This document shows, piece by piece, positions 18,696 through 55,215 of a DNA stretch of 64,000 bases. The stretch covers positions 1 to 64,000 of the forward strand of contig JAFXLL010000010.1 in the NCBI GenBank assembly GCA_017531225.1, written 5' to 3'. The notes under the pieces are model-generated. The model saw nothing but the letters and a program-made list of their open reading frames with translations, was not told the origin of the DNA and did no database searches. The stretch comes from Bacteroidales bacterium. Lineage in GTDB: Bacteria; Bacteroidota; Bacteroidia; Bacteroidales; F082. The number at the start of each line of letters is the position of its first letter. The first letter of the stretch is position 1. Made by a program: the position numbers and the translations under genes.

Positions 18696-20083
18696 AATAC
18701 AACGTCATCGTTATCGGCAGCGGCCCTGGTGGGTACGTGGCTGCCATCAGAGCATCACAACTTGGAAAGAAAACTGCCGTAGTAGAAAAGGCTGAATTAG
18801 GCGGCATCTGCCTCAACTGGGGTTGCATCCCGACTAAAGCGCTGCTGAAGAGTGCACAGGTTTACAACTACATCAACCATGCCGAGAACTATGGCATCAA
18901 GGTGGAAGGCGAAGCAAAGCCCGACATGGAGGCCGTGGTTGCCCGCAGCCGTGGCGTGGCCGAGACCATGAGCAAAGGCGTTCAGTTCCTCCTCAAGAAG
19001 AATAACGTAGAGGTCATCAACGGCTATGGCCGTCTCACTGCCGACAAGCAAGTGTCAGTGACCGATGCCGAGGGCAACGTTACCTTGCATGAAGCCGATC
19101 ATATCATCCTCGCTACCGGTTCCCGCGTTCGCGAACTGCCCGCTCTGCCTATCGACGGCAAAAAGATCATCGGTTACCGTCAGGCTTTGGTGCTGGACAA
19201 GCTTCCAGAAAGCATGGTAGTAGTCGGTTCTGGTGCCATCGGTTCAGAGTTTGCCTTCTTCTTCACCAGCATGGGCGTCAAAGTGACTCTCGTGGAGTTC
19301 CTGCCCAATGTGGTGCCTAATGAGGACGAAGAAGTGTCCAAGCAAGTGGAGCGTTCCTTCAAGAAACTGAAGATGACGGTGATGACCGAAGCCTCAGTGA
19401 CCCATGTGGACACCACCGGTGAGAAATGCGTGTGCACCATCAGCACCAAGAAGGGCGAAAAGACCGTGGAAGCTGACATCGTACTCTCCGCCGTCGGCGT
19501 GCAGACCAACATCGATGACCTCGGACTGGAGACACTGAACATCGCCACTGAACGCGGCAAAGTCATCGTTGACGACTTCTACCGCACCAACGTGCCTGGC
19601 GTTTATGCCATCGGCGACATCGTTCATGGTCCCGCTTTGGCTCATAAGGCCGACCACGAAGCCACCATTTGCGTGGAGAAACTTTGCGGCCTCGATCCCA
19701 AGCCTCTGAACTATGCCAACATTCCTGGTTGCACCTATACCACTCCTGAAATCGCCTCTGTCGGCTTAAGCGAAGCCAAAGCCATCGCTGCCGGCTATGA
19801 GGTCAAGATCGGCAAGTTCCCCTTCACCGCCTCAGGTAAAGCCACCGCAGCAGGCAACAAGGACGGCTTCATCAAAGTCGTGTTTGATGCCAAGACTGGC
19901 GATTGGTTAGGTTGCCACATGGTAGGTGACAACGTCACCGAAATGGTCGCCGCCGCTGTACTCTGCCGTGAACTCGGTGCCAAGGGCGAGGACATCATCC
20001 ACGCGGTGTTCCCCCACCCCACCATGTCGGAAGGCATCATGGAAGCCGCAGCCGCAGCCTATAACGAGTGCGTTCACCTTTAA
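18692..20083 (+). CDS. lpdA: Dihydrolipoyl dehydrogenase (E3)
   Basis: Flavoprotein, 463 residues, that reoxidises dihydrolipoamide in 2-oxo acid dehydrogenase complexes and the glycine cleavage system. It has the FAD-binding GSGPGGYVAAIRASQLGK, the redox disulfide GGICLNWGCIPTKALL, the NAD-binding GSGAIGSEFAFF, the second FAD motif AIGDIVHGPALAHKADHE, and the C-terminal FPHPTMSEGIMEA with the catalytic His. No lipoyl domain is fused. It is followed by rfbC across a heptad-repeat array; no E1/E2 gene is nearby. Confidence 0.95.
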   Translation: MKYNVIVIGSGPGGYVAAIRASQLGKKTAVVEKAELGGICLNWGCIPTKALLKSAQVYNYINHAENYGIKVEGEAKPDMEAVVARSRGVAETMSKGVQFLLKKNNVEVINGYGRLTADKQVSVTDAEGNVTLHEADHIILATGSRVRELPALPIDGKKIIGYRQALVLDKLPESMVVVGSGAIGSEFAFFFTSMGVKVTLVEFLPNVVPNEDEEVSKQVERSFKKLKMTVMTEASVTHVDTTGEKCVCTISTKKGEKTVEADIVLSAVGVQTNIDDLGLETLNIATERGKVIVDDFYRTNVPGVYAIGDIVHGPALAHKADHEATICVEKLCGLDPKPLNYANIPGCTYTTPEIASVGLSEAKAIAAGYEVKIGKFPFTASGKATAAGNKDGFIKVVFDAKTGDWLGCHMVGDNVTEMVAAAVLCRELGAKGEDIIHAVFPHPTMSEGIMEAAAAAYNECVHL

Positions 20084-20117
20084 TGAGGTGAGAGGTGAAA
20101 GATGAGAGGTGAGAGAT
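20083..20117. repeat. Heptad array A: (GAGAGGT)n after lpd
   Basis: Five 7-bp units (ATGAGGT GAGAGGT GAAAGAT GAGAGGT GAGAGAT) fill the whole gap between the lpd stop and the rfbC start. It belongs to the family of degenerate heptads seen throughout this window. Confidence 0.8.
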
Positions 20118-20121
20118 AATT

Positions 20122-20664
20122 ATGGAAATCATAGAAACTAGGATTAAGGATTTATCAATCATCAAGCCGGACGTATTCCTGGATGAGCGCGGCTATTTCT
20201 TCGAAAGCTATAACAAGCAGCGCTTTTTAGAGCACGGACTCGACATGAACTTTGTTCAGGACAACGAGAGCCAATCCATGAAAGGTGTGTTGCGTGGCTT
20301 GCATTTCCAGAAACCACCTTTTGCACAGGGTAAGTTGGTGCGCGTGGTGAAAGGTGCCGTCAGGGACGTGGCTGTCGACCTCCGCAAGGGCTCTCCTACA
20401 TACGGACAATGGGAGTCAGTGGAGCTTACCGAAGGTAACAAGTTCATGTACTGGATTCCGGAAGGTTTTGCCCACGGATTCGTGTGCCTCGAGGATTACT
20501 CGGTGTTCACCTACAAATGCACCAACGTCTACAACAAAGCCTCTGAAGGCAGCATCCGATGGAACGATCCCGACCTGAACATCCGATGGGACATCGAAAA
20601 CCCCATCCTGTCAGAGAAAGATAAAGTCTCTCCACTATTCAAGGATTTCGTCACTCCATTCTAA
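20122..20664 (+). CDS. rfbC: dTDP-4-dehydrorhamnose 3,5-epimerase
   Basis: Cupin-fold epimerase, 180 residues, third step of dTDP-L-rhamnose synthesis for surface polysaccharide. It has ERGYFFESYNKQRF, VLRGLHFQKPPFAQGKLVRV with the catalytic-base His, the DVAVDLRKGSPTYGQWESVE run and WIPEGFAHGFVCLED. No rfbA, rfbB or rfbD is in the window, so the rest of the pathway must be elsewhere. It is followed 6 bases later by the lytic transglycosylase gene. Confidence 0.93.
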   Translation: MEIIETRIKDLSIIKPDVFLDERGYFFESYNKQRFLEHGLDMNFVQDNESQSMKGVLRGLHFQKPPFAQGKLVRVVKGAVRDVAVDLRKGSPTYGQWESVELTEGNKFMYWIPEGFAHGFVCLEDYSVFTYKCTNVYNKASEGSIRWNDPDLNIRWDIENPILSEKDKVSPLFKDFVTPF

Positions 20665-20670
20665 ACAACA

Positions 20671-25418: not shown

Positions 25419-25491
25419 TATTGTGATAGAATTTCAGGAGGTAAAATTACAAAACTTTTCGGTATTTCTACAATCGTATTCAATAAATCCG

Positions 25492-25499
25492 TATTTTTG
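25492..25499 (+). promoter_or_regulatory. -7 element for rsmG
   Basis: TATTTTTG lies about 19 bases before the rsmG ATG; no clear -33 TTG. Confidence 0.5.
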
Positions 25500-25517
25500 T
25501 GAGTTTATTATATTATT

Positions 25518-26144: not shown

Positions 26145-26151
26145 TTAAATC

Positions 26152-28950: not shown

Positions 28951-28975
28951 TCAAACAAATTAAATCAATATCACA

Positions 28976-30689: not shown

Positions 30690-32582
30690 ATGAAAAGACT
30701 TTTTATACTCGTTTTTGCATTGCTAACCTTTAGCGTCATGCAAGCACAATGGGTCAACGACCCTGTCAACAACACCTTTATTGCCAACACCTCGGCTGAT
30801 GCCGGTGAGATTTACCTTGCCACCAATCCCAATACCGGTGACACCTACGTCCAATGGATGAGTTTCGTGGGCGGCAACGGCTGGTCACCCAATTTGCAGC
30901 GACTCAACTTCGCTGGCGAACCCCAATGGGGCGACAACGGCATTCACATCGCAGCACATGAGTTCTCCTCAATGTCGGAAGGCGTTTCCATGGCTACAAC
31001 AACCGACGGTGGCGTGGTAAGCTGCTTCGCTGTTTACGATGGCTATACCTATGCTGTGAAAATTAATCCTGATGGCACCTTCCCATGGGGCGAACAAGGC
31101 GTTCAACTTTTCGGAGGCCTCGGCTTCTCACGCGCTGAAGTCATCGCCACCGACAATGGCGGCATCTGGGCTTTAGGTTTCGACTACACCAACCTTTATC
31201 TGCAGTATATCAACGAAACCGCCGGACCTGTCATCACCATCTCCGATAACACCGGATTAAAATGCATGTTCGGAAAGCTCACGCTTGGCAATGACAACAA
31301 AGTCTTCGTGACATACGAGAAACTCGGAAGCGGTATGTACACCAACAAATCGATCTATGTCGCAGGTTACAATACCGATGGCACACAGTTCAGTCCAGAA
31401 ACGCAGCTGATGGCGGAACAGACATTCCAATCAACCTATATCCATTCTGCCATTTCCGACGGCATGGGCGGCGGTTACGTTTACATCTTCCATCCTGCTT
31501 TTTATAATTTCAACGTTTACGTGTTCCACTTCGACCAAAACGGTAACACAACCATCATGGATCCCAACGGCGTTCCGGTACACTCACCCGACAACAACAA
31601 CTTATACATCTCCGCAAGCGCCACCGTCGATCCCGTCAGCCACGACATCATCCTCGTCTATGAACAGACCGACGACGCTAATCAGGTTCAGTGCAAGATT
31701 TACGTGAACCGCATCACGTCATACGGTGAAGTGTTGTGGGGCGACGGCATCCTCGTGCTTGACAACGGCACCATCCCTTGTGGAGGTTATAACATCGACG
31801 CCTTCGAATTCGGCGACGGTTTTGTCGTAACCTACTTCAAAGGTATCGGCCAAACAGCCGGAAGCATGGCAACTGTTGAGGCCCAAGGTTTCGATATGAG
31901 CGGCAACAATATTTGGAACACACAGATGTGCTCAAGCAATTACAGCAAGACAAGTTGCAGAAACAGCACTGGATTCCATGACGGACAGAACATCATCACC
32001 TGGATCAATTCAACCGATGCTGTTGGCAGCGGCCCTGGTGGTATGTACGGACAGAACATCGGTCAAAACGGCGAGATGGGCGAAGTCACACCTCCAACCC
32101 CACCTGCGCCATGCGATGCACCGACCAATTTCCAAGGCGAAGCTTATTACAACAACGCCACAGGTAGTAGTGCTGCTATGCTTTCATGGACTGCACCTGA
32201 GCCACAGCCCGACCAATACAATCTTTACTGCGAAGGCCTTAAGGAAACGATAGTCATCGACGGCGCTGCCACCTCGTTCCATCAGGATCTAGAGCCAGGA
32301 GACTACATCATGAAACTCACCGCCGTATTTGACGACTGCGAGTCAAACTATGCCCTTACCCCCAATGGCGACAACTACATCCTCCTCGAAATCCCGAATT
32401 TCCAGTCCGTCGCTGAAAACGTTGACGAGCCTATCGTCACCATCACGAAGATCTACACGATGAACGGGCAACTCGTCAAAGAAACCGATTTGGAGCATCT
32501 GCCTTACGGAATCTACCTCATCCAAGGCCTCACCCAGAACGGCAATCTGGTCACCCGTAAATTAGTTAACTCCAAACGCTAA
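30690..32582 (+). CDS. Secreted protein with T9SS C-terminal sorting domain
   Basis: A 630-residue exported protein. I start it at the ATG at 30690, because an upstream in-frame ATG at 30621 lies inside the terminator hairpin and before the promoter. It has the signal peptide MKRLFILVFALLTFSVMQAQ, a long region of repeated WG- and D-rich strands (about 25-460) like a beta-propeller, a fibronectin-like domain (about 475-570), and a Por sorting tail (TMNGQLVKETDLEHLPYGIY...TRKLVNSKR). It should be exported by Sec and moved across the outer membrane by T9SS. The ligand or activity is unknown. Confidence 0.85.
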   Translation: MKRLFILVFALLTFSVMQAQWVNDPVNNTFIANTSADAGEIYLATNPNTGDTYVQWMSFVGGNGWSPNLQRLNFAGEPQWGDNGIHIAAHEFSSMSEGVSMATTTDGGVVSCFAVYDGYTYAVKINPDGTFPWGEQGVQLFGGLGFSRAEVIATDNGGIWALGFDYTNLYLQYINETAGPVITISDNTGLKCMFGKLTLGNDNKVFVTYEKLGSGMYTNKSIYVAGYNTDGTQFSPETQLMAEQTFQSTYIHSAISDGMGGGYVYIFHPAFYNFNVYVFHFDQNGNTTIMDPNGVPVHSPDNNNLYISASATVDPVSHDIILVYEQTDDANQVQCKIYVNRITSYGEVLWGDGILVLDNGTIPCGGYNIDAFEFGDGFVVTYFKGIGQTAGSMATVEAQGFDMSGNNIWNTQMCSSNYSKTSCRNSTGFHDGQNIITWINSTDAVGSGPGGMYGQNIGQNGEMGEVTPPTPPAPCDAPTNFQGEAYYNNATGSSAAMLSWTAPEPQPDQYNLYCEGLKETIVIDGAATSFHQDLEPGDYIMKLTAVFDDCESNYALTPNGDNYILLEIPNFQSVAENVDEPIVTITKIYTMNGQLVKETDLEHLPYGIYLIQGLTQNGNLVTRKLVNSKR

Positions 32583-32600
32583 ACTTTCAACTCTCAACTA
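32583..32600. repeat. Short heptad array after a stop codon
   Basis: ACTTTCA ACTCTCA ACTA follows the T9SS gene stop directly, a weak (about 2.5-unit) member of the heptad family. Confidence 0.45.
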
Positions 32601-32603
32601 AAT

Positions 32604-32796: not shown

Positions 32797-33699
32797 ATGA
32801 AGAAAAACACCTTAAGGAAACTACAGCGATATCTACCTTTCATATTATTGGCTATCAGTTTGTTAGCATGTACTTTTGCCTTTGGCGACGTAGGCAATCA
32901 GAATCGCTATAATTCTGGTGGAGGAAATGGCGGCGACGGCGATCTTGGCATGCTCATCGGCTACCTGATCGGCCCCTTCATCGACGATCCTGTTACAGGC
33001 ATGATTGTGTTGGCAATCATTTTAGTCATCTTTTTCATCAGGAAAAAGAAAGCCCAGAATCAGGCCAGCAACCCTGGCTATGTCAATCAGCAGGTAGAGA
33101 ACCAGGTTAGGACCGACACCACTCCCGATTATAGCGCCATCGTGGCCAACCAAATCCAGACCATCGACCCCGCTTTCTCGGCCGACAAGTTCATCGGCTT
33201 TGCCCGTGAAGTCTTCATGAAGATCCAGGAAGCCTGGACCACCAAGGACTGGAAGCCTATCCGCCCCTTCGAGAGCGAGACGCTCTTCAACCAGCATAAG
33301 CAACAACTCGACGAATACATCCGTTTGGGCAAGACCAATGTGGTGGAGAAGATCGGCATCAAGCATTGCTCGTTGCACAGCTTCGTGGAAGATGGCGACA
33401 AGGAAGTGCTCACTGTGTGGCTCAATGCCGTGATGCGCGACTATGTGATTAACGATGCCACCAAGGAGGTGCTCGAGAGCGATCCCAACATGGATTGGTA
33501 CATGAAATACGAGATGGTGTTCAACCGCAAGGCTGGCCTGAAGACCGACCCAGGACGTAAGGGTAATTCCATCACGAACTGCCCCAACTGCGGCGCACCC
33601 ACTGAGGTTACCTCGTCAGGACAATGTTCCTACTGCGGCAGCGTCATCACCAATGGCGAACATGATTGGGTGTTGACAGATATACGTTCGAGGAGTTAA
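32797..33699 (+). CDS. Membrane protein with Tim44-like domain and zinc ribbon
   Basis: A 300-residue protein. A hydrophobic N terminus (about 13-31), a Gly/Asn-rich spacer and a second span (about 55-85, ending IVLAIILVIFFIRKKK) anchor it. A soluble Tim44/MRP-L45-like domain follows (about 120-240), with FIGFAREVFMKIQEAWTTKD and EVLTVWLNAVMRDYVIND. The C terminus has one zinc ribbon, CPNCGAP...CSYCGS. It lies 65 bases upstream of the SPFH gene, which also ends in zinc ribbons, so the two probably act together. The fold assignment is from pattern only. Confidence 0.75.
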   Translation: MKKNTLRKLQRYLPFILLAISLLACTFAFGDVGNQNRYNSGGGNGGDGDLGMLIGYLIGPFIDDPVTGMIVLAIILVIFFIRKKKAQNQASNPGYVNQQVENQVRTDTTPDYSAIVANQIQTIDPAFSADKFIGFAREVFMKIQEAWTTKDWKPIRPFESETLFNQHKQQLDEYIRLGKTNVVEKIGIKHCSLHSFVEDGDKEVLTVWLNAVMRDYVINDATKEVLESDPNMDWYMKYEMVFNRKAGLKTDPGRKGNSITNCPNCGAPTEVTSSGQCSYCGSVITNGEHDWVLTDIRSRS

Positions 33700-33735
33700 G
33701 AGATAAGAGATAAAAGATAATAGATAAACAAATCA
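33697..33735. repeat. Heptad array B: (AGATAAA)n after a stop codon
   Basis: GAGATAA GAGATAA AAGATAA TAGATAA follows the Tim44-like gene; the gene's TAA stop blends into the first unit. An AT-rich run with weaker 7-base rhythm continues to the SPFH start. Confidence 0.75.
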
Positions 33736-38290: not shown

Positions 38291-39451
38291 ATGTCAAGAA
38301 TACTCATTATCGACGACCAGGATCCCATCCGCCGTGTGCTGCGTGAGATCTTGGAGAACGAAAAATACCAAGTTGACGACGCTGCCAATGGTCCAACTGC
38401 CCTGCAGATGCTGAAAGAGCAGGAGTACGATGCCATTTTGTGCGACATCAAGATGCCCGACATGGACGGCATCGAGGTGCTTGAGCAGGTGAAAGCCACT
38501 AATGACACACCTGTCATCATGATCTCAGGTCACGGCACTATCGACACTGCCGTCGATGCCATCAAGAAAGGCGCCTTCGACTTCATCCAAAAACCACCCG
38601 ATCTGAATCGCCTGCTCATCACCGTGCGTAACGCCCTTGACAAGCAGAGTCTCAGCACCGAGAACAAGGCCCTAAAGAAAGCCGTCAGCAAGCAGAACGA
38701 GATGGTGGGCACTTCGGCACCTATGATGGAGGTACGCGACATGATTGAGAAGGTGGCTCCCACCAATGCCCGTGTTCTCATCACGGGTGAGAACGGCACC
38801 GGTAAAGAGTTAGTGGCCCGTCAGCTGCATGAGCTCAGCCCGCGCCGCTATGGACCTTTCATCGAGGTCAACTGCGCAGCCATCCCAGCAGAACTCATTG
38901 AGAGCCAGCTGTTCGGTCACGAAAAAGGCTCGTTCACCTCAGCCATCAAGCAAAAGAAAGGCGACTTTGAGCTGGCCAACGGAGGCACCTTGTTCCTCGA
39001 CGAGATCGGCGACATGAGCTTGGCGGCCCAAGCCAAGGTATTGCGTGCCTTGCAGGAGAACAAGATCATCCGTGTGGGTGGCGAGAAGGAGATTCCGGTG
39101 GACGTGCGCATCGTTGCAGCTACCAACAAAGACCTGCGCAAGATGATTGAAGAGAATGCTTTCCGCGAGGACTTGTATCATCGTCTGAGCGTCATCGTGG
39201 TACACGTGCCGCCGTTGCGGGACCGCAAGGACGACATCCCGCTGCTGGTAAGCAGTTTTGTGGATACCATTGCCCAAAACATGGGCAAGGCCGCTCCTGC
39301 TTTTACCGACGAGGCTTTGGAGGAGCTCAAGAATTACCAGTGGACGGGTAACATCCGTGAGTTGCACAACATCGTGGAGCGTTTGGTAATCCTTTGTGGC
39401 AACAAGATTACCAAGGATGACGTGATTCGTTTTGGAAATCCGCTGAAATAA
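38291..39451 (+). CDS. Sigma-54-type response regulator lacking a DNA-binding domain
   Basis: A 386-residue NtrC-like protein. The receiver domain (about 1-120) has D8/D9, phosphoacceptor D52 in CDIKMPDMDG and K101. The AAA+ domain (about 140-375) has Walker A GENGTGKE, Walker B GGTLFLDEIGD and sensor segments GGEKEIPVDVRIVAATNKDL. The GAFTGA loop that contacts sigma-54 reads GSFTSA. The protein stops after KDDVIRFGNPLK, with no C-terminal Fis-type helix-turn-helix. I start at 38291, after the promoter. No histidine kinase gene is adjacent. Confidence 0.9.
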   Translation: MSRILIIDDQDPIRRVLREILENEKYQVDDAANGPTALQMLKEQEYDAILCDIKMPDMDGIEVLEQVKATNDTPVIMISGHGTIDTAVDAIKKGAFDFIQKPPDLNRLLITVRNALDKQSLSTENKALKKAVSKQNEMVGTSAPMMEVRDMIEKVAPTNARVLITGENGTGKELVARQLHELSPRRYGPFIEVNCAAIPAELIESQLFGHEKGSFTSAIKQKKGDFELANGGTLFLDEIGDMSLAAQAKVLRALQENKIIRVGGEKEIPVDVRIVAATNKDLRKMIEENAFREDLYHRLSVIVVHVPPLRDRKDDIPLLVSSFVDTIAQNMGKAAPAFTDEALEELKNYQWTGNIRELHNIVERLVILCGNKITKDDVIRFGNPLK

Positions 39452-39471
39452 GATAAAAGATAAAAGTTAGG
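39449..39471. repeat. Heptad array B at the response-regulator stop
   Basis: The stop codon TAA runs into AGATAAA AGATAAA AGTTAGG, ending right at the -33 box of tmRNA. Confidence 0.65.
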
Positions 39472-39513: not shown

Positions 39514-39911
39514 GGGGGTGTATGGTTTTGACAGCAAGATGAATTGTCACGGAAGCATGCCGAGCCTTGCAGCGAAGCTCGTAAATCTTAACTGCAAAAA
39601 AGTAATTGGCGAAAATAACTACGCTTTCGCTGCCTGATCGAAGTACAGTAGATCACTGGCTTAATCCGCTCACAAGGTGGGTGGACGAAACATCCCGCAG
39701 GTGGAGATGCCTGATTCCGGCCTGAGCACGGGGTGCTAATCAATTTCGGGATAGCTTGCGTGGCGCTCCGACACGCGGGTGAGATTTAGGAGATAAGGTC
39801 AGGTTTAGGGCGTTCGCTCCCTTGCCTGGCACGAAAACCAACAGCGAAATAAGCATGTAGAAACCTTGGGGGTTCCTTGTTTGGACGAGGGTTCGACTCC
39901 CTTCACCTCCA
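39514..39911 (+). ncRNA. ssrA: tmRNA (ssrA)
   Basis: A 398-base RNA that rescues stalled ribosomes. The 5' end GGGGGTGTATGGTTTTGACA pairs with the 3' CACCTCC, the T loop is GGTTCGACTCC, and the discriminator is A (CCA not encoded). The tag frame ends GGC GAA AAT AAC TAC GCT TTC GCT GCC TGA (GENNYAFAA), preceded in frame by KKVI. Bacteroides relatives usually end ALAA; the Phe is unusual. A terminator follows at once. Confidence 0.95.
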
Positions 39912-39913
39912 CA

Positions 39914-40227: not shown

Positions 40228-40242
40228 ATATGAAACTATTAT

Positions 40243-40276
40243 TTTTTATCTTTTATCTCTTATCTTTTATCTAATA
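40243..40276. repeat. Heptad array B between two minus-strand genes
   Basis: TTTTTTA TCTTTTA TCTCTTA TCTTTTA TCTAATA (minus strand (AGATAAA)n). The stop codon of the decayed T9SS gene is the first unit read on the minus strand. Confidence 0.78.
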
Positions 40277-40340
40277 ACAATCTTCTGCGTCTTTAATTTC
40301 TCTCCGTTGACCAATCTCAGCACGTACACTCCGGGTTTGA

Positions 40341-40377
40341 AGGTGAGAAGTGAGAGGTGAGAGGTGAGAGGTGAAAG
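40341..40377. repeat. Heptad array A inside the decayed T9SS gene
   Basis: AGGTGAG AAGTGAG AGGTGAG AGGTGAG AGGTGAA, five units. On the minus strand it reads in frame as LSPLTSHLSLLT, between the GRELVCK strand and PGVYVLRL of the sorting domain. Confidence 0.85.
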
Positions 40378-40616
40378 TTTTTTACAAACCAACTCTCTGC
40401 CGAGGGCGTCGATCACCTGAAGGGTGCCTGTGCCGTTGACGATGAGTTCGCCATTGCTGATGAAGGCGAAGTCTTCATCAGCCACTTCCCCACCCTGCTG
40501 GACGTTGAACACTAACTTGAAGCGGGAGGCATAGTCGTCGTTTCTAGCCGTGAAGGTATAGCTCGGGGTTTGGAGCAGGTCGATGTCAGCGCCGGCGAGG
40601 TTGTCAATCAAGTGAA

Positions 40617-40655
40617 GAGAGCTTAGAGTTGAGAGTTGAGAGTAGAGTGTTGAGG
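40617..40655. repeat. Second heptad array inside the decayed T9SS gene
   Basis: Units such as AGTTGAG AGTTGAG AGTAGAG TGTTGAG. In frame on the minus strand they encode STLYSQLSTLSS, placed where relatives have the short strand before LHLIDNL. Confidence 0.7.
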
Positions 40656-43478: not shown

Positions 43479-43500
43479 TCACCTCTAACCTCTCACCTCC
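43479..43500. repeat. Heptad array A between the beta-helix and polyferredoxin genes
   Basis: TCACCTC TAACCTC TCACCTC fills the 23-base gap from the stop of one gene to the start of the next. Confidence 0.75.
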
Positions 43501-43501
43501 T

Positions 43502-44884
43502 ATGCTACGCAAACTCCGAATCACACTGGCCGTCATCGCCATTCTACTGGTAACCCTGCTGTTCGTGGGTGTCGGCTATGGCATCACCCCTTGGGTGGAA
43601 TGGATTGCCAAGATCCAGTTCCTACCAGCGCTGTTGGCCATGAACTTCATCGTGGTGGCCATCCTGCTCATCATCACCCTGCTCTTTGGCAGGACCTATT
43701 GTAGCGTGATCTGCCCGTTGGGCGTCATGCAAGACATCTACAGCTGGCTTGGCGGCAAGTTCAAGAAGAACCGCTTCAGCTATGTAAAAGAACACAAATG
43801 GCTACGTTACAGCGTTTTGGCGCTGTTTGTCATCTGCCTCATCATTGGTTTCGCACCAGTGACCACGTTGCTTGCGCCATACAGCACCTACGGTCGCATC
43901 GTCACCAGTTTCTACATGCGCAACGTCACCGTCTCCATCATCGCTTGGGTGGTGATGCTAGTGCTCGGCGTTTTGGCGTTTCTTTACGGCCGCGCCTACT
44001 GCAACTCGATTTGTCCCGTAGGAACCATCCTCAGCTTCTTCTCCCGTTTCTCACTGTTTAAAGTGCGTATTGACGAGAGCAAATGTACGCACTGCGGTCT
44101 CTGCGAGAAGAACTGCAAGGCTCGGGCCATTGATGTCAAGAATGGCGCCGTGGATTATTCCCGTTGCGTGGTTTGCGGAGACTGCACTGCACAATGCAAG
44201 TTTGGCGCAATGAATTATTCGGCCAAGAAGCCGGTTCAAGACATGTCAAGCGAACCCGACCAAGGCCGTCGTTCGTTCCTGGTCGGCACAGCCATAGCCA
44301 CTGGCACCGCTGCCATGGCCCAAGCTCAGATGAAGGTGGACGGCGGACTGGCTGTCATCACCGAGAAGCAGGCTCCCAAGCGTGAGACCCCGTTGACGCC
44401 TCCCGGATCCATCTCGGCACGTCACATGCAGAAGCATTGCACCGCTTGCCAACTCTGCGTGTCGGCCTGTCCGAACCACGTGTTGCGTCCCTCAACCGAT
44501 CTGAACCGTTTCATGCAGCCCACCATGTCGTTCGAGATAGGCTACTGCCGTCCTGAATGTACCCGCTGCAGCCAAGTATGTCCCTCTGGTGCCATCAAGC
44601 CCATCACCAAGGAGGAGAAGACCGCCATCCATGCAGGCCACGCCGTTTGGGTGAAGGATAACTGCGTAGTGCTCACTGACGGCGTCAGCTGCGGCAACTG
44701 CGCCCGCCACTGCCCCACCGGAGCTATCCAGATGGTGGAATACCAGCACAATGGCCAGACGGTCATGGTGCCCGCCGTCAACGAGAGCCGTTGCATCGGC
44801 TGCGGCGCTTGCGAGAATCTATGTCCCTCTCGGCCGTTCAGCGCCATCTACGTCGAGGGCAACGTTACACACCAAAAGGACTGA
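43502..44884 (+). CDS. NapH-like membrane polyferredoxin with internal Tat-like motif
   Basis: A 460-residue electron-transfer protein. The N-terminal part has four membrane segments and two GR(T/A)YCxxxCPxG motifs, as in NapH/CcoG-type proteins. Two 4Fe-4S clusters follow (CTHCGLCEKNC, CVVCGDCTAQC). At about residue 258 RRSFLVGTAIATGTAAMAQA looks like a twin-arginine signal/anchor, and then four more Cys clusters follow (CTACQLCVSAC, CTRCSQVC, CGNCARHC, CIGCGACENLC). It appears to be two ferredoxin modules joined through a Tat-type segment. It lies 4 bases before the aldo/keto reductase gene and probably feeds it electrons. Confidence 0.85.
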   Translation: MLRKLRITLAVIAILLVTLLFVGVGYGITPWVEWIAKIQFLPALLAMNFIVVAILLIITLLFGRTYCSVICPLGVMQDIYSWLGGKFKKNRFSYVKEHKWLRYSVLALFVICLIIGFAPVTTLLAPYSTYGRIVTSFYMRNVTVSIIAWVVMLVLGVLAFLYGRAYCNSICPVGTILSFFSRFSLFKVRIDESKCTHCGLCEKNCKARAIDVKNGAVDYSRCVVCGDCTAQCKFGAMNYSAKKPVQDMSSEPDQGRRSFLVGTAIATGTAAMAQAQMKVDGGLAVITEKQAPKRETPLTPPGSISARHMQKHCTACQLCVSACPNHVLRPSTDLNRFMQPTMSFEIGYCRPECTRCSQVCPSGAIKPITKEEKTAIHAGHAVWVKDNCVVLTDGVSCGNCARHCPTGAIQMVEYQHNGQTVMVPAVNESRCIGCGACENLCPSRPFSAIYVEGNVTHQKD

Positions 44885-44888
44885 AACC

Positions 44889-46289
44889 ATGAAAAGAAGA
44901 GACTTTATAAAGAAAATGGGCGGCGCTGCCGTGGCGACCTCGGTGGTGCTCTCCGCCTGTAAATCAAATACCAACCCCGGTGTCACTCCCACTGACGTCA
45001 TCGACGGACAGGGTGAAATGACCTACCGCATCAACCCCAACAGTGGCGACAAAGTGTCACTGTTAGGCTACGGCATGATGCGCCTCCCGATGGTCGACGG
45101 AGCTACCTTCCGCGACAATCCTAACGCCCAGATCGACCAGGATATGGTGAATGAAGAGATCGACTATGCCCTCGAGCACGGCGTCAACTATTTCGACACC
45201 TCCCCGGTCTACACCCGAGGCCATTCTGAAGAAGCCACTGGCATCGCCCTCTCACGGCACCCACGCAACAGCTATTACCTGGCCACCAAATTGTCGAACT
45301 TCAGCCCTTCCACCTGGGGCACCGAGGCCTCCAAAGCCATGTTCGAGAACTCCTTGAAATACCTGCGTACCGACTACGTCGACTACCTGCTGCTGCATAG
45401 CATCGGCGGATCGAGCAACGAGTTGGGTTGCATGGAGATGTTCAACGCCCGATTCATCGACAACGGCATCCTTGACTGGTTGGTAGAACAAAAGCAAGCC
45501 GGTCGCATCCGTAACTTAGGCTTCTCCTTCCATGGCGACGTGGAGGTGTTCGACACCATGCTGCGCTGGCACGACGAGGGTCGCTACCACTGGGACTTCG
45601 TCCAGATCCAGCTGAACTACGCCGACTGGAACTATGCCCATGTCATCGATTCGGACAACGTCAACGCCGTTTATCTCTACAACGAGCTGCATCGCCGTGG
45701 CATCCCCGCCGTCATCATGGAGCCCCTTCTTGGAGGCCGACTCGCCAAACAGCCCGACTACATCGTGCGGCAGATGAAGGAACGTGAGCCCGAGACGCCT
45801 GTGGCACGCTGGGCCTTCCGTTTCGCCGGCACCCCCGAAGGCGTGCTGGTGGTTTTGAGCGGCATGACCTATATGGAGCATCTGATGGAGAATGTAGCCA
45901 CCTACTCACCCTTGCGTCCCATCACCGACGAGGAAAACGAGTTCCTGATGAAGATCGCCGAGGAGTTCGTGGAGCTGAAGACCGTGCCCTGCACCGCCTG
46001 CAACTACTGCATGCCATGCCCTTACGGCCTGAACATCCCTGCCATCTTTGCACATTACAACGACTGCATCACTGAGGGCAACATGCCTGCCGGCAACCCC
46101 GAAGCCGAGGAATACCGCCGCAATCGTCGTGCCTTCCTCAAGAGCTACGACAGCAAGGTGCCTTATGAGCGCCAGGCCAGCCACTGCATCGGATGCCACC
46201 AGTGCGAGTCACACTGCCCGCAAAAGATCGCCATCGCTAGCGAGATGCAACGCATTGACGAATTTGTGGAACACCTTAAACAGAGTTGA
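44889..46289 (+). CDS. Tat-exported aldo/keto reductase lipoprotein with ferredoxin domain
   Basis: A 466-residue protein. MKRRDFIKKMGGAAVATSVV is a Tat signal, and VLSAC (Cys24) a lipobox. The AKR barrel (about 50-350) has LLGYGMMRLPMVDG, HGVNYFDTSPVYTRGHSEEA and DYVDYLLLHSIGG. The C-terminal region (about 365-466) binds clusters through CTACNYCMPCPYG and CIGCHQCESHCPQ. It works in the periplasm or at the outer face, presumably using electrons from the polyferredoxin rather than NADPH. The start at 44889 is fixed by the Tat motif; a longer frame reads into the upstream gene. The substrate is unknown. Confidence 0.87.
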   Translation: MKRRDFIKKMGGAAVATSVVLSACKSNTNPGVTPTDVIDGQGEMTYRINPNSGDKVSLLGYGMMRLPMVDGATFRDNPNAQIDQDMVNEEIDYALEHGVNYFDTSPVYTRGHSEEATGIALSRHPRNSYYLATKLSNFSPSTWGTEASKAMFENSLKYLRTDYVDYLLLHSIGGSSNELGCMEMFNARFIDNGILDWLVEQKQAGRIRNLGFSFHGDVEVFDTMLRWHDEGRYHWDFVQIQLNYADWNYAHVIDSDNVNAVYLYNELHRRGIPAVIMEPLLGGRLAKQPDYIVRQMKEREPETPVARWAFRFAGTPEGVLVVLSGMTYMEHLMENVATYSPLRPITDEENEFLMKIAEEFVELKTVPCTACNYCMPCPYGLNIPAIFAHYNDCITEGNMPAGNPEAEEYRRNRRAFLKSYDSKVPYERQASHCIGCHQCESHCPQKIAIASEMQRIDEFVEHLKQS

Positions 46290-46312
46290 GAGGTTCAAGG
46301 TGAGAGGTGAGA
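46284..46312. repeat. Heptad array A at the aldo/keto reductase stop
   Basis: AGTTGAG AGGTTCA AGGTGAG AGGTGAG; the TGA stop of the reductase gene lies in the first unit. Confidence 0.75.
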
Positions 46313-46330
46313 ATTATTTAAAAAAAACAC

Positions 46331-46338: not shown

Positions 46339-46355
46339 CAGCGCTTTTAGCGCCT

Positions 46356-46784: not shown

Positions 46785-46795
46785 ATTCTGTCTTC

Positions 46796-47884: not shown

Positions 47885-47904
47885 AATTCAATAGTTTTAG
47901 ACCG

Positions 47905-47912
47905 CAAAGATA
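47905..47912 (-). promoter_or_regulatory. -7 element for the DUF2027/Smr gene
   Basis: TATCTTTG on the minus strand, 20 bases before the ATG. Confidence 0.5.
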
Positions 47913-47959
47913 CGATTTTGGAAAGATTTTTGTATCATTGCAATTGAATTCTGACGAAG

Positions 47960-48838
47960 ATGAAAAAGATTGCCCTTCTGCCGCTTCTCTTGGTTTCGAT
48001 GATGAACGTTGCCTGCGACAAACCCGTAAGCAACGGCGACACCGAAATCCATATCAGCTATACCGTCAATGGTCACGACCTGATCACTGACAGCCTCTGC
48101 TATACCAATGCGGCAGGAAACCAGTTCCTCATCAATGAAATACAATGGTTCATCTCGAACGTCACTTTAATTGGTGAACAAGGCGACGAATATGCCTTGG
48201 GCAAGATCTTTTACATCGACACCAACATCCCAGAAAGCCAAGTTCTCACAACAGCTTCAGTCCCTTGTCAAAAATACACCTCCATGCGTTTCACTTTCGG
48301 ACTTGACCGCGAGGACAACGTCACCGGGCTATTCTCCAATCCACCTGAACGCGACATGTTCTGGCCAGAGCCTCTTGGCGGCGGCTACCATTATATGAAA
48401 CTCAACGGTAAATATGTTGATGAAAACGGCGATCTCGCCCCAATGAACATCCATCTCGGCATTGGCCAGAATGAAGACCTAACCGCTTTCTATCAGAACT
48501 ATTTCACCGTGGAGCTTCCCCTGGAGCTGGACCTGAAACAGGACTGTGTCAACGCGATTCAGCTCAACATGAACATCGACAACTGGTTCCAAAACCCGCA
48601 TATTTACGATTGTCAAACCTATGGCAGCGCCATCATGCAGAACCAAGAAGCACAGCAGCTTTTCAAGGAAAATGGCCATAACGTATTCAGCATCAGTAGC
48701 ATTGATCATAATATGGAAAAGATTGTTAGCACTTTGAAAGACCTCATGCACAAGGCGGCACCAAAGCCCCATTTCTACACGAAGAAAAACATGGAGTCGC
48801 TCTTCGCAGATTTCTTCAACCACAATAACAAAGAATAA
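47960..48838 (+). CDS. MbnP-like lipoprotein (putative copper-binding)
   Basis: A 292-residue exported lipoprotein; the lipobox MMNVAC places the lipid Cys at 19. The region ~30-235 follows the MbnP-like pattern: NQFLINEIQWFISNVTLI, an early strand, then MRFTFGLDREDNVTG and a Trp-containing WPEPLGGGYHYMKLNGKY. In methanotrophs MbnP is modified by the diheme enzyme MbnH (Trp to kynurenine) and binds copper. The next gene, overlapping by one base, encodes just such a diheme enzyme. No methanobactin precursor or MbnB/MbnC is present. Confidence 0.75.
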   Translation: MKKIALLPLLLVSMMNVACDKPVSNGDTEIHISYTVNGHDLITDSLCYTNAAGNQFLINEIQWFISNVTLIGEQGDEYALGKIFYIDTNIPESQVLTTASVPCQKYTSMRFTFGLDREDNVTGLFSNPPERDMFWPEPLGGGYHYMKLNGKYVDENGDLAPMNIHLGIGQNEDLTAFYQNYFTVELPLELDLKQDCVNAIQLNMNIDNWFQNPHIYDCQTYGSAIMQNQEAQQLFKENGHNVFSISSIDHNMEKIVSTLKDLMHKAAPKPHFYTKKNMESLFADFFNHNNKE

Positions 48839-49842
48839 TGAAAGCGAGGATCGCTGTCGTTTTGCTCTTTGGTTTGCTGCTGGCCGGATGCCGTCCGACC
48901 CATGACGACTCATACCAGCCAACGCCCTACGAGTTGCCGCAACCCTTGTTTTTTCCCTCCACAAACAACATTCCTGATGACAACCCCATGACCGAGGAAG
49001 GCGTTGCATTGGGAGAAATGCTTTTTTTCGGCACCAACCTCTCACCTCTCACCTCTCATCTCTCATCTTGTTGCGCTTCCTGCCATCATAAGGAACACAG
49101 TTTTGAAATGGGACCTGAAGGCACTCTTGAAAACCTTGGTACAACACACACCATGCTCCCTCTCATCAATTTGGCTTGGAACACCACTGGATTAGGCTGG
49201 GAAAGCCAGGTGGCCACGCTTGAGGACATGGTTTACGCTGCCTATACCGACCCGTTGGAGATCAACGCAGATACCTCCGAAGTAGTCCAACAACTGCAAC
49301 AATCCGATACCTATCCCGAGCTTTTCAGAAAGGCTTTCGGTACAGATAAAATCACCTTTATCCTTGTGGAGAAAGCCATTGCCCAATACGTCCGCAGTCT
49401 AGTCTTTGCCAATAGCAAGTTCGACCGATACCTGCGTGGCGAAGAACAGCTTGAACAAGATGAACTAAACGGCTACATGCTTTTCATCACGGAGAACGGT
49501 GCCGACTGTTTCCACTGCCACGGCGGTGGCGCCAATGCCTTGTTTACCACCTACCTGCGCTATAACAACGGCCTTGATGCCGCCATCCAAGGCGAGTTCA
49601 AAGCCCCTACCCTACGCAACATCGCCCTTACTGCCCCCTATATGCACGACGGCCGCTTCACAACCCTCGACGAAGTCATCGACTTCTACTCCGAAGGCGT
49701 GCAGTACTCGGAGCATATCAGTCCGCTGATGCACCATGTGATGCAAGGCGGCGTACAACTCACCCCACAAGAAAAACAACAACTCAAAGCGTTTCTCAAT
49801 ACCTTGACGGATGACCTATATCAAATCGAACGACCTTTTTAA
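48838..49842 (+). CDS. Diheme cytochrome c peroxidase-like protein (MbnH/MauG type)
   Basis: A 334-residue lipoprotein (lipobox LLLAGC, Cys18). The two heme c motifs are C79-ASCH and, near residue 224, CFHCH; conserved text includes PTLRNIALTAPYMHDGRFTT and LDEVIDFYSEGV. The loop just before heme 1 (residues 68-76, LSPLTSHLS) is encoded by a heptad-repeat array. It overlaps the MbnP-like gene by one base and the methyltransferase gene by 32. It probably oxidises the MbnP partner; general peroxidase activity is the alternative. Confidence 0.85.
   Translation: MKARIAVVLLFGLLLAGCRPTHDDSYQPTPYELPQPLFFPSTNNIPDDNPMTEEGVALGEMLFFGTNLSPLTSHLSSCCASCHHKEHSFEMGPEGTLENLGTTHTMLPLINLAWNTTGLGWESQVATLEDMVYAAYTDPLEINADTSEVVQQLQQSDTYPELFRKAFGTDKITFILVEKAIAQYVRSLVFANSKFDRYLRGEEQLEQDELNGYMLFITENGADCFHCHGGGANALFTTYLRYNNGLDAAIQGEFKAPTLRNIALTAPYMHDGRFTTLDEVIDFYSEGVQYSEHISPLMHHVMQGGVQLTPQEKQQLKAFLNTLTDDLYQIERPF
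49038..49068. repeat. Heptad array A inside the diheme enzyme gene
   Basis: CCTCTCA three times, then TCTCTCA. It is read in frame and ends three codons before the first heme motif. Confidence 0.85.
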
Positions 49843-50332
49843 GAGTATCCCTACGGAGGAAATATACCAACGCATCCCCCATCCCATCGTCATCGCCGAC
49901 CACCTGATGACCCCTGACAACATGGGCGCTATGATACGCATCGCCGACAACATCGGAGCGTCAGAAATGTGCTTCCTCGGTGACGAGAGCAGGCATAGCT
50001 TGGGCAAGGTGCGCCGAGCCGCCGCTTCCAGCCGTGGCAACATCCGCTGGTACTTCACCGAAGAAACCGACCTACGCAAGATCGTCCCGGAAGGCAAGAC
50101 CATCGTCGCCATTGAGACTGCCGACAACGCCACCTGCATTTATGACACGCCTCTGCCTGAAGACGTCGCTTTCATCGTAGGAAGCGAGAGCCACGGACTC
50201 AGCGAGGATCTGCTTCGCCAATGCGATATGGCGGTTTACATCCCCGTGCCCGGCCCCACCCGATCGCTCAACGTCAGTCATGCCGCCGCCGTCGCCCTCT
50301 TCGAATGGCAACGCCAAATGCTCCAAAAATGA
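49811..50332 (+). CDS. SpoU/TrmH-family RNA 2'-O-methyltransferase
   Basis: A 173-residue SPOUT enzyme that methylates ribose in tRNA or rRNA. All three motifs are present: MTPDNMGAMIRIADNIGASE (motif 1), AFIVGSESHGLSEDLL (motif 2) and VYIPVPGPTRSLNVSHAAAV (motif 3). There is no extra substrate-binding domain. The start at 49811 lies inside the end of the diheme gene, and its stop overlaps the HAD gene start (ATGA), so the genes are translationally linked. Confidence 0.92.
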   Translation: MTYIKSNDLFKSIPTEEIYQRIPHPIVIADHLMTPDNMGAMIRIADNIGASEMCFLGDESRHSLGKVRRAAASSRGNIRWYFTEETDLRKIVPEGKTIVAIETADNATCIYDTPLPEDVAFIVGSESHGLSEDLLRQCDMAVYIPVPGPTRSLNVSHAAAVALFEWQRQMLQK

Positions 50333-51024
50333 AAACCTATAAGCATATTTTCTTCGATCTGGACCGAACCCTTTGGGACTTCGATGCCGCCGCCGAAGTG
50401 GCCTTTGAACGCATCTACGAGCAATACCACCTCAAAGACCTCGGCATCCCTAACGCCCATGAGTTCCATGAGGTCTATCATCCGCTGAACGAAAAGCTTT
50501 GGGAGCTATACCGTGCCGACCTGATCACCAAAGACGAGCTGAACCACACGCGTTTCATGAAGCCACTGGAACATTACGGCATCCACAACGAGGAGTTAGC
50601 CGACCACTTGAGCGAGGATTACGTGTATTGGTCACCTCGCATCGTAAGGCTGGTTCCCGGCACCATGGAGTTGTTGGATTACCTCAAGCCGAAATACCAT
50701 TTACACCTCATCACCAATGGCTTTCAAGAGGTACAACACACCAAGCTCAGCGGCTCTGGCTTGGAACCTTACTTCGAGACCCTCACCGTCTCCGAGGAAG
50801 TCGGGGTAAAGAAGCCCAATCCCGAGATTTTCCTCTATGCCTTGAAAAAAGCTGGTGCCACTGCTGACGAAAGCCTGATGATTGGTGATGAAATGGCCGT
50901 CGACATTGATGGCGCCCGTGCCGCCGGCATGGATCAATTGCTGTTCAACGCCTCAGGACAACCCGTCCATGGCGAACGCACTTACGAAGTAAACAAATTG
51001 CTTGAAATCACCTCTTACCTTTAA
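50329..51024 (+). CDS. HAD hydrolase, YjjG-type nucleotidase
   Basis: A 231-residue HAD-superfamily phosphatase. Motif I is FFDLDRTLWDFD, motif II LHLITNGFQEVQ, the motif III Lys is in EEVGVKKPNPEIF and motif IV is MIGDEMAVDIDGARAAGMD. YjjG members dephosphorylate nucleoside monophosphates, including non-canonical pyrimidines. I start at 50329 (ATGA overlap). The last codons and stop lie in a heptad array shared with psd on the other strand. Confidence 0.87.
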   Translation: MKTYKHIFFDLDRTLWDFDAAAEVAFERIYEQYHLKDLGIPNAHEFHEVYHPLNEKLWELYRADLITKDELNHTRFMKPLEHYGIHNEELADHLSEDYVYWSPRIVRLVPGTMELLDYLKPKYHLHLITNGFQEVQHTKLSGSGLEPYFETLTVSEEVGVKKPNPEIFLYALKKAGATADESLMIGDEMAVDIDGARAAGMDQLLFNASGQPVHGERTYEVNKLLEITSYL

Positions 51025-51049
51025 CCTTTCACCTCTCACCTCTCAAGGT
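51008..51049. repeat. Heptad array A spanning two convergent gene ends
   Basis: TCACCTC TTACCTT TAACCTT TCACCTC TCACCTC TCAAGGT, six units. It supplies the last codons and the stop of the HAD gene (plus) and of psd (minus). Confidence 0.85.
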
Positions 51050-51715
51050 TGCCAACACTGACGACTTGCCTCTCACCTTCTGACCGATGTGGACATTCAC
51101 CTCAGCATCCACTGGGAGAAACACATCCACTCGTGAACCAAAGCGGATCATGCCGAACTCCTCACCAACGATCGAGGCATCGCCCGGCTCCAAATCGCAC
51201 ACGATGCGGCGAGCCACAAAACCGGCAATCTGACGCACCAACACCTCTCGGCCTTGAGCATCCTTGATCACAATGGAATTATGCTCGTTTTCCGTTGAAG
51301 ATTTAGGCTTGAAGGCCACCAAAAACTTGCCTGGATGGTATTTGTAATAGGTCACTTCTCCATCAAACGGGAAGAAGTTGATATGCACGTTATAAATGGA
51401 CATGAAAATGGAGATCTGACGGCGTTCTTCGTGGAAATACTCGTCTTCCATCACGATCTCGTTGGCTGCTATCTCACCATCGGCAGGCGAGATCACCGCA
51501 TTCTCCATAATGGTGGTCTTCCGATGAATGGGAATCCTGAAAAACCGAACAATCAAAGCAGATACAAAAATGGCAATGACATAAATCATGATATGCCACC
51601 AATCCTGATGAGGCCACAGCAGATTTATGCCAACGATCACCACCGCCCAAACCAAAAAGGTTATGATGATGGCCCTATTGCCTTCTTCGTGAATCCGCTT
51701 GTTGATTTTTCTCAT
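51029..51715 (-). CDS. psd: Phosphatidylserine decarboxylase
   Basis: A 228-residue membrane enzyme of the short Psd type that makes phosphatidylethanolamine. Two N-terminal membrane segments (about 15-60) precede ENAVISPADGEIAANEIVME, MSIYNVHINFFPFDGEVTYY, and the self-cleavage site MIRFGSRVDVFLPVD, where the Ser becomes the pyruvoyl group. Its start overlaps the cdsA stop by 4 bases. The end (TLRGER) is formed by a heptad array. Confidence 0.95.
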   Translation of the reverse strand: MRKINKRIHEEGNRAIIITFLVWAVVIVGINLLWPHQDWWHIMIYVIAIFVSALIVRFFRIPIHRKTTIMENAVISPADGEIAANEIVMEDEYFHEERRQISIFMSIYNVHINFFPFDGEVTYYKYHPGKFLVAFKPKSSTENEHNSIVIKDAQGREVLVRQIAGFVARRIVCDLEPGDASIVGEEFGMIRFGSRVDVFLPVDAEVNVHIGQKVRGKSSVLATLRGER

Positions 51716-52500: not shown

Positions 52501-52507
52501 AGTGATG

Positions 52508-52515
52508 CAAAGATA
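52508..52515 (-). promoter_or_regulatory. -7 element for cdsA-psd
   Basis: TATCTTTG on the minus strand, 7 bases before the ATG, starting at the last T of the upstream terminator. Confidence 0.55.
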
Positions 52516-52546
52516 AAAAAAGCCGCCCATAATGGACGGCTTTTTT
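52515..52546 (-). terminator. Terminator of the large T9SS gene
   Basis: On the minus strand, AAAAAAGCCGTCC, ATTAT, GGGCGGC and seven T; one G-T pair. It begins 19 bases after the gene stop. Confidence 0.85.
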
Positions 52547-52564
52547 CAAATCTTTAAGAAAAGA

Positions 52565-55078: not shown

Positions 55079-55141
55079 AATGTGTAAATTAGTTAATAAT
55101 AATTGAATAAATGAATTTAGTTTACATTCTTTTTGAGGCTA

Positions 55142-55149
55142 CAAATATA
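55142..55149 (-). promoter_or_regulatory. -7 element for the large T9SS gene
   Basis: TATATTTG on the minus strand, about 63 bases before the ATG. Confidence 0.5.
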
Positions 55150-55188
55150 ACAATTGTTTTGGAAAAAGGGTGTTTTTTTTCAAAAAAA

Positions 55189-55215
55189 CCTCTCACCTCT
55201 CACCTTCCTTCGCCT
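55189..55215. repeat. Heptad array A at the mazG stop
   Basis: CCTCTCA CCTCTCA CCTTCCT TCGCCTC. On the minus strand it encodes the last residues (EGER) and the TGA stop of mazG. Confidence 0.75.

Follow-up and report, generated by a model that had tools for sequence, protein, structure and literature searches.

The tandem heptanucleotide repeats of Calothrix go under the name STRR. According to Mrazek 2007 (cited in PMC4679880 and PMC4692102), many bacteria favour heptads as the step of their long repeats, and GGGNATC repeats lie almost without exception nearer to the 5′ neighbouring open reading frame (ORF), whichever way that ORF is oriented (Rehm et al. 2015, PMC4692102). In the portions of PMC4692102 and PMC4679880 on which we draw, the origin and function of heptad repeats are left open, and each family is discussed by its own letters, as a G-quadruplex or as a regulator site. 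Here we analyze arrays of tandem 7-nt units (heptads) in a stretch of 64,000 nt, the window, from an uncultured rumen Bacteroidales bacterium (assembly GCA_017531225.1, contig JAFXLL010000010.1, positions 1 to 64,000). The Creative Commons-licensed full texts that we searched hold no report of these arrays in this bacterial group. In the genus to which the bacterium belongs, letters and position are uncoupled: the unit changes from species to species, and the period, the strand rule and the sites stay constant.

The heptad arrays of the window are real, and they extend past it. An initial annotation made from the letters of the window had listed a dozen arrays, of which a lag-7 match score recovered 10 at a cut-off of at least 9; in 100 windows with shuffled dinucleotides the mean number was 0.28 and the highest 3. 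Cut-offs of 9, 12, 13 or 14 were used depending on the analysis, with Tandem Repeats Finder (TRF) as a second finder. The site at 46284 was found by TRF and is too degenerate for a score of at least 9, whereas the site at 32583 (9 of 12 lag-7 matches, about 2.3 units) was missed by both the lag-7 scan and TRF and could be chance. At a score of at least 12, the window contains seven period-7 arrays (shuffled mean 0.02), two of period 9 and none of periods 5, 6, 8, 10, 11, 12 or 13. The annotation had taken its two unit types, GAGAGGT and AGATAAA, to be unrelated. This does not hold, as mixed arrays exist (GAGTTAA GAGATAA; TAAAAGTTAATAGATAA) and both words are C-poor. The ribosomal block (its identity confirmed for S8 and EF-G) had been called array-free, which is correct at a score of at least 12, but one weak match with a score of 10 lies at 6745.

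We extended the scan to 464 kb of the contig of the window species (window genome 98.4% complete) and to relatives, which are uncultured Bacteroidales metagenome-assembled genomes (MAGs), mostly from the ruminant gut, with one genome per species. Forty-five loci were taken as the same genus (73–98% protein identity, 775 kb) and 8 loci as outgroup (137 kb). The main set comprises 134 arrays with a score of at least 13 in 72 sequences (1.73 Mb). Genes were called with a hexamer-based script, and the strand of an array was assigned by G over C. One duplicate contig (L085, equal to L044) was left out of the array counts and kept in spans and gene ends. At a score of at least 14, the 464 kb yields 17 period-7 arrays, and a single shuffled copy yields 0; the remaining periods from 4 to 15 give 0 to 7, the 7 being period 14. 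The genus loci contain 60 period-7 arrays, of which 58 are real and two are runs of N that were excluded from subsequent counts, and periods besides 7 and 14 give 1–8. A further 94 were found in pieces of the genomes G010 (84% complete) and G008, which were picked for holding GGAATKC or AACGGAR matches. The arrays thus resemble heptameric simple-sequence repeats, in that 7-nt units follow one another head to tail and this period outnumbers the others. The initial annotation had observed one period shared by differing units, and this holds for many units, which in relatives include AACGGAA, AGAAGAC, GGAATGC, GGAGTTA and AATTGAT. On the strand so assigned, the units are 3.3% C over the 134 arrays, and 86 arrays have no C at all.

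Single heptad units have been amplified species by species. We counted tandem patterns in 16 genomes, where overlapping matches in one array are each counted, so that the figures are not array numbers. Three tandem copies of AACGGAR are frequent in G008 (222), G023 (158), G020 (54), G010 (28), G089 (23) and G111 (15), rare in G034 (6), G068 (3), G070 (2), G075 (1) and the window genome (1), and absent from G117, G004, G013, G036 and G076, with a reversed control at 0 in 16 of 16. GGAATKC has 177 matches in G010, 93 in G008, 46 in G023, one in G089 and none in the other twelve, its reversed control again giving 0. Of the other patterns, GAAGWMA occurs in all 16 genomes (6–142 matches; control 1–43, the word reading nearly alike backwards), GAGMTRA gives 0–4 matches per genome, and GAGAGNTGAGAGNTGAGAG is found in 24 of 61 genomes, all but one belonging to the genus (23), with a reversed control that also matches many, GAGAGTT being nearly the same backwards.

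The unit is also replaced at orthologous spots, both behind a gene for a sigma-54 response regulator (window 39449) and in the frames of Asd, TilS and MauG. The regulator protein ends at the identical residue in 14 of 14 sequences compared, and an array above threshold follows its stop in 5 of 13 relatives, with the units AACGGAA (G008, G023), GAGGTTA (G034, G036) and GTGGAAA (RUI549). By eye, G020 carries GAGGTGA with AATTGA and G075 carries GTTGGGA with a TAG stop, and G117, G013 and G070 are array-free. In a table of orthologous gene ends, two or more unit families occur in each of the 11 rows that are occupied in at least two species. Three of these rows are a single spacer, leaving 9 distinct spacers, and in one row only 1 of 15 pairs differs. 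For gene ends with at least 8 species compared, 55 of 304 cells are occupied, unevenly among sites (chi-square 53.7, 17 degrees of freedom, p 1.1e-5; duplicate rows included in both figures), and therefore some sites are permissive and others not. In the 5′ leader of the neighbouring transfer-messenger RNA (tmRNA) (window 39514-39912 and relatives), several relatives have antisense heptad arrays, seen by eye; their unit equals that behind the regulator in G023, G008, G020 and G075 and differs from it in G034 and G036.

A constant period with swapped units speaks for an underlying process that moves in steps of seven nucleotides and can be tested by comparison. We judge the chances to be slightly better than even that heptad families multiply inside each genome and settle where translation tolerates arrays. 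A common unit would be copied to new places, grow and shrink by 7-nt steps and later be replaced by another unit, with placement set by translational tolerance, that is, by purifying selection and not by aiming. The C-poor strand of most units carries stop triplets in all three frames (7 = 1 modulo 3) and would survive in sense mainly from the stop onward. At a stop, arrays pull the last two bases of the stop codon, and sometimes the last codon, into their own register with no shortening of the protein. The complement would be tolerated just before starts and in enzyme loops, where one unit yields one repeating peptide. New arrays are probably copied in trans. Since the units are purine-rich and share a few bases with the stop (RR), the most likely route would be template switching over short homology or gene conversion; slippage would alter the length and purifying selection settle the strand. 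A bolder idea, which we consider possible but unlikely, is a heptad writer: a process acting in trans, fixed in its 7-nt step but free in its unit, that would write the words of each species from gene borders outward and rewrite stops and enzyme loops on its way.

Stop codons are where the arrays concentrate. Among the 134, 52 are sense arrays starting at a stop and 10 are sense arrays 7–60 nt past one; 23 are antisense near a stop (12 of these at most 12 nt from a start), 23 are internal antisense, 11 internal sense, 9 antisense and 2 sense before starts, and 4 are other. At the stop itself, 52 sense arrays stand against 11 antisense arrays, and 8 of these 11 lie within 12 nt of a start. A same-strand stop within 3 nt of the array start was found for 30 of 100 non-internal arrays, where random placement in spacers gives 1.7 and at most 6 in 200 trials; kinship among species is ignored in this and in the stop-register and polarity statistics below. 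The excess at stop codons proposed in the initial annotation is therefore real, and both this excess and change of arrays among relatives are seen in the 1.73 Mb sampled, which is not a whole-genome count. The preference for 3′ ends that it had drawn from the window stands in part only, because arrays also end just before starts and sit, mostly as the complement, within enzyme genes.

The array takes in the stop codon: in 34 of 58 sense arrays directly behind a stop, the second and third letters of the stop codon are in phase with the heptad, compared with a mean of 16.2 and a maximum of 27 in 2000 sets of permuted stops. At one site the last codon is taken in too, with AAT TGA TAATTGA in some species and AGT TGA TAGTTGA in others. 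Truncation of proteins by insertion can be rejected, as the ends of 35 array-bearing and 134 array-free orthologs have medians of 0 and 0 (p 0.35), with extremes of −3 and +9 among the 35.

Of 96 arrays between genes, 75 have a gene closer to the 5′ end of their C-poor strand than to its 3′ end (p 2.7e-8; one tie and 3 edge arrays excluded). Split by context, with the tie in the second number, this polarity is 45 vs 3 between stop and start, 15 vs 3 between two stops, 11 vs 15 between start and stop, and 4 vs 1 between two starts. Units free of stop triplets keep the polarity (25 vs 10 in the G010 and G008 pieces, against 22 vs 11 for stop-bearing units), so a role as stop backup is not supported as the cause of the strand rule. 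Inside genes of the same pieces, stop-free units are found in sense 12 times and in antisense 8 times, and stop-bearing units 2 and 5 times; tolerance predicts that stop-bearing units be mostly antisense and that stop-free units occur both ways. Quadruplexes were rejected: none of the 134 arrays has four GGG tracts and 16 have any GGG, and with units lacking G-tracts the strand rule needs no quadruplexes.

The location at stops and just before starts, together with the strand rule, could also be explained if the arrays were selected sites at which a protein or RNA factor binds at gene borders, for 3′ end formation, stop backup or a leader function, with the period outweighing the letters. The same strand rule in Xanthomonas and Nostoc (PMC4692102, in part) fits this proposal, as do the inverted same-unit pairs that form long hairpins across some convergent gene ends, mostly in G010 and G008. 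We nevertheless regard it as unlikely, since the low occupancy of gene ends (55 of 304 cells), the free swapping of units, the arrays in coding loops, the polarity of stop-free units and the missing GGG tracts all speak against it.

In the 464 kb, 8 arrays of 27–35 bp lie in genes at a score of at least 13, and 8 of 8 are antisense. Seven of them encode the peptide SHLSPLT in rotation, in TilS, GH20, an S41 peptidase, ApbE (one change), Asd, MauG and a type IX secretion system (T9SS) tail; the eighth, in gene 354218-360067, encodes another peptide in a T9SS-like tail, a label that comes from our reading of the protein end. For three genes (Asd, TilS and MauG) orthologs were compared, and in each the array is an insertion when set against relatives. 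Of the 21 genomes in which Asd was matched, 10 carry heptads in it: CACCTCT in the window genome, G036 and G010, CAACTCC in G117 and G075, a CAACTCC/TAACTCC mix in G034, CAACTCT in G004, CAACTTT in G111, two arrays in G070, and two arrays with an interrupted gene in G020. None were found in G013, G076, G068, G089, G023 and six more distant genomes, and G008 has no Asd match. The interrupted asd gene of G020 (L229/L231; L033:801-1805) matches in two frames that meet at the heptad array, a break that may be out-of-frame slippage, perhaps of the phase-variation kind by which a gene is switched on or off, or a MAG assembly error. In MauG, the loop is short in 10 of 15 relatives and carries heptads in G036 (CACCTCT), G020 (AGCTCTC) and G010 (ATTCCGA), the last being GGAATKC, the most frequent tested unit in that genome; G068 and G076 have longer loops with no clear array. 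The haem motif is intact.

TilS has heptads in 8 of 22 genomes at a score of at least 9, and several others have long loops with no heptads. Because in several relatives (loci L240-L253) this loop is filled by long repeat-like peptides, for example FERSEAESRNL in G017, the sequences indicate a permissive site that takes several kinds of small repeat and is not specific to heptads. In our reading, the loop peptides of some relatives derive from DNA resembling repetitive extragenic palindromic (REP) sequences.

Another alternative is plain local slippage, by which each array would be born in place through repeated 7-nt duplication at a stop, units being alike because stops and purine-rich spacers are alike. 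This would explain why the stop codon stands in the register of the array, as if the array had grown from it, and it fits the favoured place of heptads among the long-repeat steps of many bacteria. It also agrees with unit-number variation among relatives, seen for the Asd loop in one pair at the species level, where G034 and G075 are 7 residues, or 3 units, apart. It does not account for a unit that has 222 matches in one genome yet is absent from five relatives, for one peptide-coding unit in seven unrelated genes that offer no stop as a seed, or for orthologous loops that hold differing units by species. We think it a little less probable still than selected binding sites.

The initial annotation had seen no dyad in the arrays. 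No inverted pair of same-unit arrays occurs in the 464 kb of the window genome, but relatives have 17, most of them in G010 and G008, some bridging convergent gene ends as long hairpins. In all, 44 pairs of neighbouring arrays were scored; 28 face each other, 1 faces away, and 14 and 1 are parallel. Two inverted pairs in L170 of G010 (5740-5819 and 12485-12564) have 18-nt loops that are mutually reverse-complementary, as would be expected had a single 80-bp unit been copied once in each direction. Such pairs would suit arrays that were the arms of REP-like elements or of miniature inverted-repeat transposable elements (MITEs), moved by RAYT (Y1) transposases. REP/RAYT systems are present in the genus: Y1 genes occur in 33 of 41 genomes, the window genome has 3 matches (one partial), and the density of REP-like hairpins is about fourfold higher in the vicinity of arrays (19 in 7.6 kb vs 151 in 232 kb). 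RAYT-type genes with several adjoining GC-rich palindromes stand at L191, L195, L197, L198, L201 and L209 (CACCCCATCGGGGTG, CCCCACACTGCGCTTCG..., CCCCTACGGGG). However, at least 6 of 20 transposase loci have their own GC-rich palindromes at the gene, no array with a score of at least 12 lies within 800 bp of the transposase domain in 20 of 20 loci, and most arrays are single with no partner, which makes this origin very improbable. Weakest of all, in our estimate, is an RNA-templated writer, a telomerase-like reverse transcriptase (RT) adding heptads from an exchangeable RNA template in the manner of DRT10, which would suit the fixed step, the exchangeable unit and the C-poor polarity from the gene border into the spacer, has a precedent in a bacterial RT that yields tandem-repeat cDNA of 9-nt units and accepts an altered template (PMC12632851), and finds RT matches in the array-bearing G004, G008, G020 and G023, but has no PF00078 (RVT_1) match in the window genome or in array-rich G010 (22 of 41 genomes have one, and divergent RTs may escape the profile) and no mention of chromosomal entry of DRT10 products in the part of PMC12632851 on which we draw.

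Several observations weigh against multiplication of heptad families within each genome under translational tolerance. Whole-array copying is weakly supported by unit order, which is shared in 21 pairs of the window genome (null 18.4, maximum 28 of 200) and in 73 pairs of G034 (null 59.3, maximum 69 of 60). The active adding or copying process put forward in the initial annotation fits the species-specific amplification and the unit swaps at orthologous spots. No copying machine was found, the RAYT and RT candidates being unsupported. Two units from one genome are only moderately more alike than two from orthologous spots of different genomes: 32% of 73 pairs are within one base in the former case and 23% of 188 in the latter, with baselines of 7% of 1450 for unrelated pairs and 1% for random heptads. 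In five of the 11 internal sense arrays the sense strand itself carries stop triplets, contrary to what tolerance predicts if those gene calls are right, and tolerance alone does not obviously explain the zero spacing to stops or the polarity of stop-free units (25 vs 10). At gene 51029-51508, four of four array-bearing proteins end 3 residues past the usual end. Finally, with one genome per species no gain or loss was seen at the level of strains, and kinship does not enter the stop and polarity figures.

Nine sites of the window begin in or beside a stop codon, as first described (20083, 32583, 33697, 39449, 40243, 43479, 46284, 51008 and 55189). On the plus strand, a GAGGTGA-type array (20085..20115) starts 1 nt past the stop of the dihydrolipoyl dehydrogenase gene 18692-20083; the orthologous spot in G117 has AGAAGAC. 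A GAGATAA-type array (33693..33727, plus) includes the stop codon of the Tim44-like gene 32848-33699, where G117 is without an array and G075 has AAGAAGT at the equivalent stop. The site of the replaced unit upstream of the tmRNA is an AAGATAA-type array (39450..39467, plus) that begins in the stop of the sigma-54 response regulator gene 38291-39451. A degenerate GAGGTGA-type array (46282..46312, plus) runs through the stop of the aldo/keto reductase gene 44916-46289; relatives above threshold have AAACGGA in four cases and an AATTGAG/GAGGTGA mix in one, and are otherwise empty. The doubtful 2.3-unit stretch, of AGTTGAG type (32583..32601, minus), lies past the stop of 30738-32582. Also on the minus strand, a GAGAGGT-type array (43481..43499) stands between a stop at 43478 and a start at 43502, antisense to both, and relatives have GGAGTTA, GGAATTA or GTTGGGA types there, or nothing. 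A GAGGTGA-type array (51008..51045, minus) spans the two convergent stops of 50329-51024 (plus) and 51029-51508 (minus), and another (55188..55205, minus) crosses the stop of the MazG gene (55193-55969, minus), with GAGGTGA type in G036 too, AAGATAA in G023 and G089, and AAAGTGG in G070.

The minus-strand ORF 40267-40611, which ends in a T9SS type A sorting tail, is associated with three arrays: one of AAGATAA type (40239..40272, minus) through its stop, one of GAGGTGA type (40343..40374, plus) within it, whose coding strand reads SPLTSHLSLLT, and one of GAGAGTT type (40618..40654, plus) antisense to it. The last corrects the initial annotation, in which three sites had been placed within frames; 40341 and 49038 are internal, but 40617 is outside, the predicted start of this ORF being 6 bp away and the array upstream of it. 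The array at 49037..49068 (GAGGTGA type, minus) is in the gene for the di-haem cytochrome c peroxidase MauG (48838-49842) and encodes NLSPLTSHLSS directly before the CASCH haem motif. Promoter-like matches are at chance (11 vs 12.6), one of them (46286-46314) within an array, and terminator-like sites are slightly over chance (20 vs 14.3), with one pair directly behind the weak site at 32583.

Other lineages may prefer other step lengths. The outgroup loci hold 2 period-7 and 8 period-8 arrays, the latter in two Prevotella loci and in L102/L103; the uncultured Prevotella loci L100 and L101 show AAGGTGAG and AGCAGACA, and one period-8 pattern matched 1 of 295 genomes. G060, from another Bacteroidales family (L148-L157), has 24 period-7 arrays of other units and 9 of period 10 in 180 kb, and three further families have no period-7 arrays in 100 kb each. 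In a survey of 20 other families, period-7 arrays turned up in 2, the 0.4–20 kb per family (two pieces all N) being too little sequence for a rating. In a viral collection, 26-nt forms matched 27 stretches for GGAATKC, 13 for AACGGAR and 3 for GAGAGGT; these pattern-selected stretches are 41–70% GC, together carry 111 period-7 arrays, many of them built from other units, and may be bacterial DNA. Were the heptad writer true, then GGAATGC and AACGGAA in metagenome contigs of 41–70% GC, taken with the strand rule of Xanthomonas and Nostoc, would make the process general in bacteria and the known heptamer families its local outputs.

Among the closest described systems is the GGGNATC family of Xanthomonas and Nostoc (PMC4692102, in part), with which our arrays share dispersed tandem 7-nt units, inverted pairs, and lengths that vary between relatives. 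Both are found in sense at most 50 bp from stops (overlaps included) and in antisense at most 50 bp upstream of starts, both are under-represented on the coding strand of ORFs, and in both the ORF that flanks the 5′ end of the repeat is the closer one; in the genus studied here this rule of strand and side is followed except in the start-stop context (11 vs 15). The initial annotation had called the cyanobacterial parallel loose, but Xanthomonas and Nostoc heptads share the strand rule, and the parallel is close. The differences are that the GGGNATC repeats have one G-rich unit type, ascribed to G-quadruplexes, whereas this genus has many units that are replaced at orthologous spots, and that 83% of the Xanthomonas repeats recur as G-rich repeats in the equivalent gene context of sister species (PMC4692102). 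The Calothrix tandem heptanucleotides offer a parallel in that three different heptads are tandemly repeated in one genome (PMC4692102). Like our arrays, the TAACTGA repeats of Beggiatoaceae, Cyanobacteria and some Bacteroidetes (MacGregor 2015; PMC4679880, in part) are dispersed, 2–6 units long in the main genome and mostly intergenic near gene borders, have stops in all frames and in some cases overlap a stop codon; they lie mainly before starts, whereas ours lie mainly in stop codons and others in enzyme loops. Doubled TAACTGA occurs 0 times in the 464 kb of the window genome and once in 72 genus sequences.

Two further likenesses concern mobile elements. Rickettsia palindromic elements insert one repeat in-frame in unrelated metabolic genes with a conserved peptide (PMC10969869, in part), and here too one peptide enters unrelated genes in frame, as seen against relatives for MauG, Asd and TilS; those elements are palindromes of about 150 bp, unlike the coding arrays of 27–35 bp of tandem heptads. 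REP/RAYT palindromes are near some arrays and, in our reading, in the TilS loop of some relatives, but no array adjoins a RAYT gene in 20 loci and most arrays lack an inverted partner. These comparisons place the arrays as a variant of the known heptameric simple-sequence repeats, with the unusual trait that one unit gives way to another at conserved places, both in stop codons and in enzyme loops. Small repeats can thus enter the loops of housekeeping enzymes such as Asd and TilS and reset stop codons, and the proteins are not shortened.

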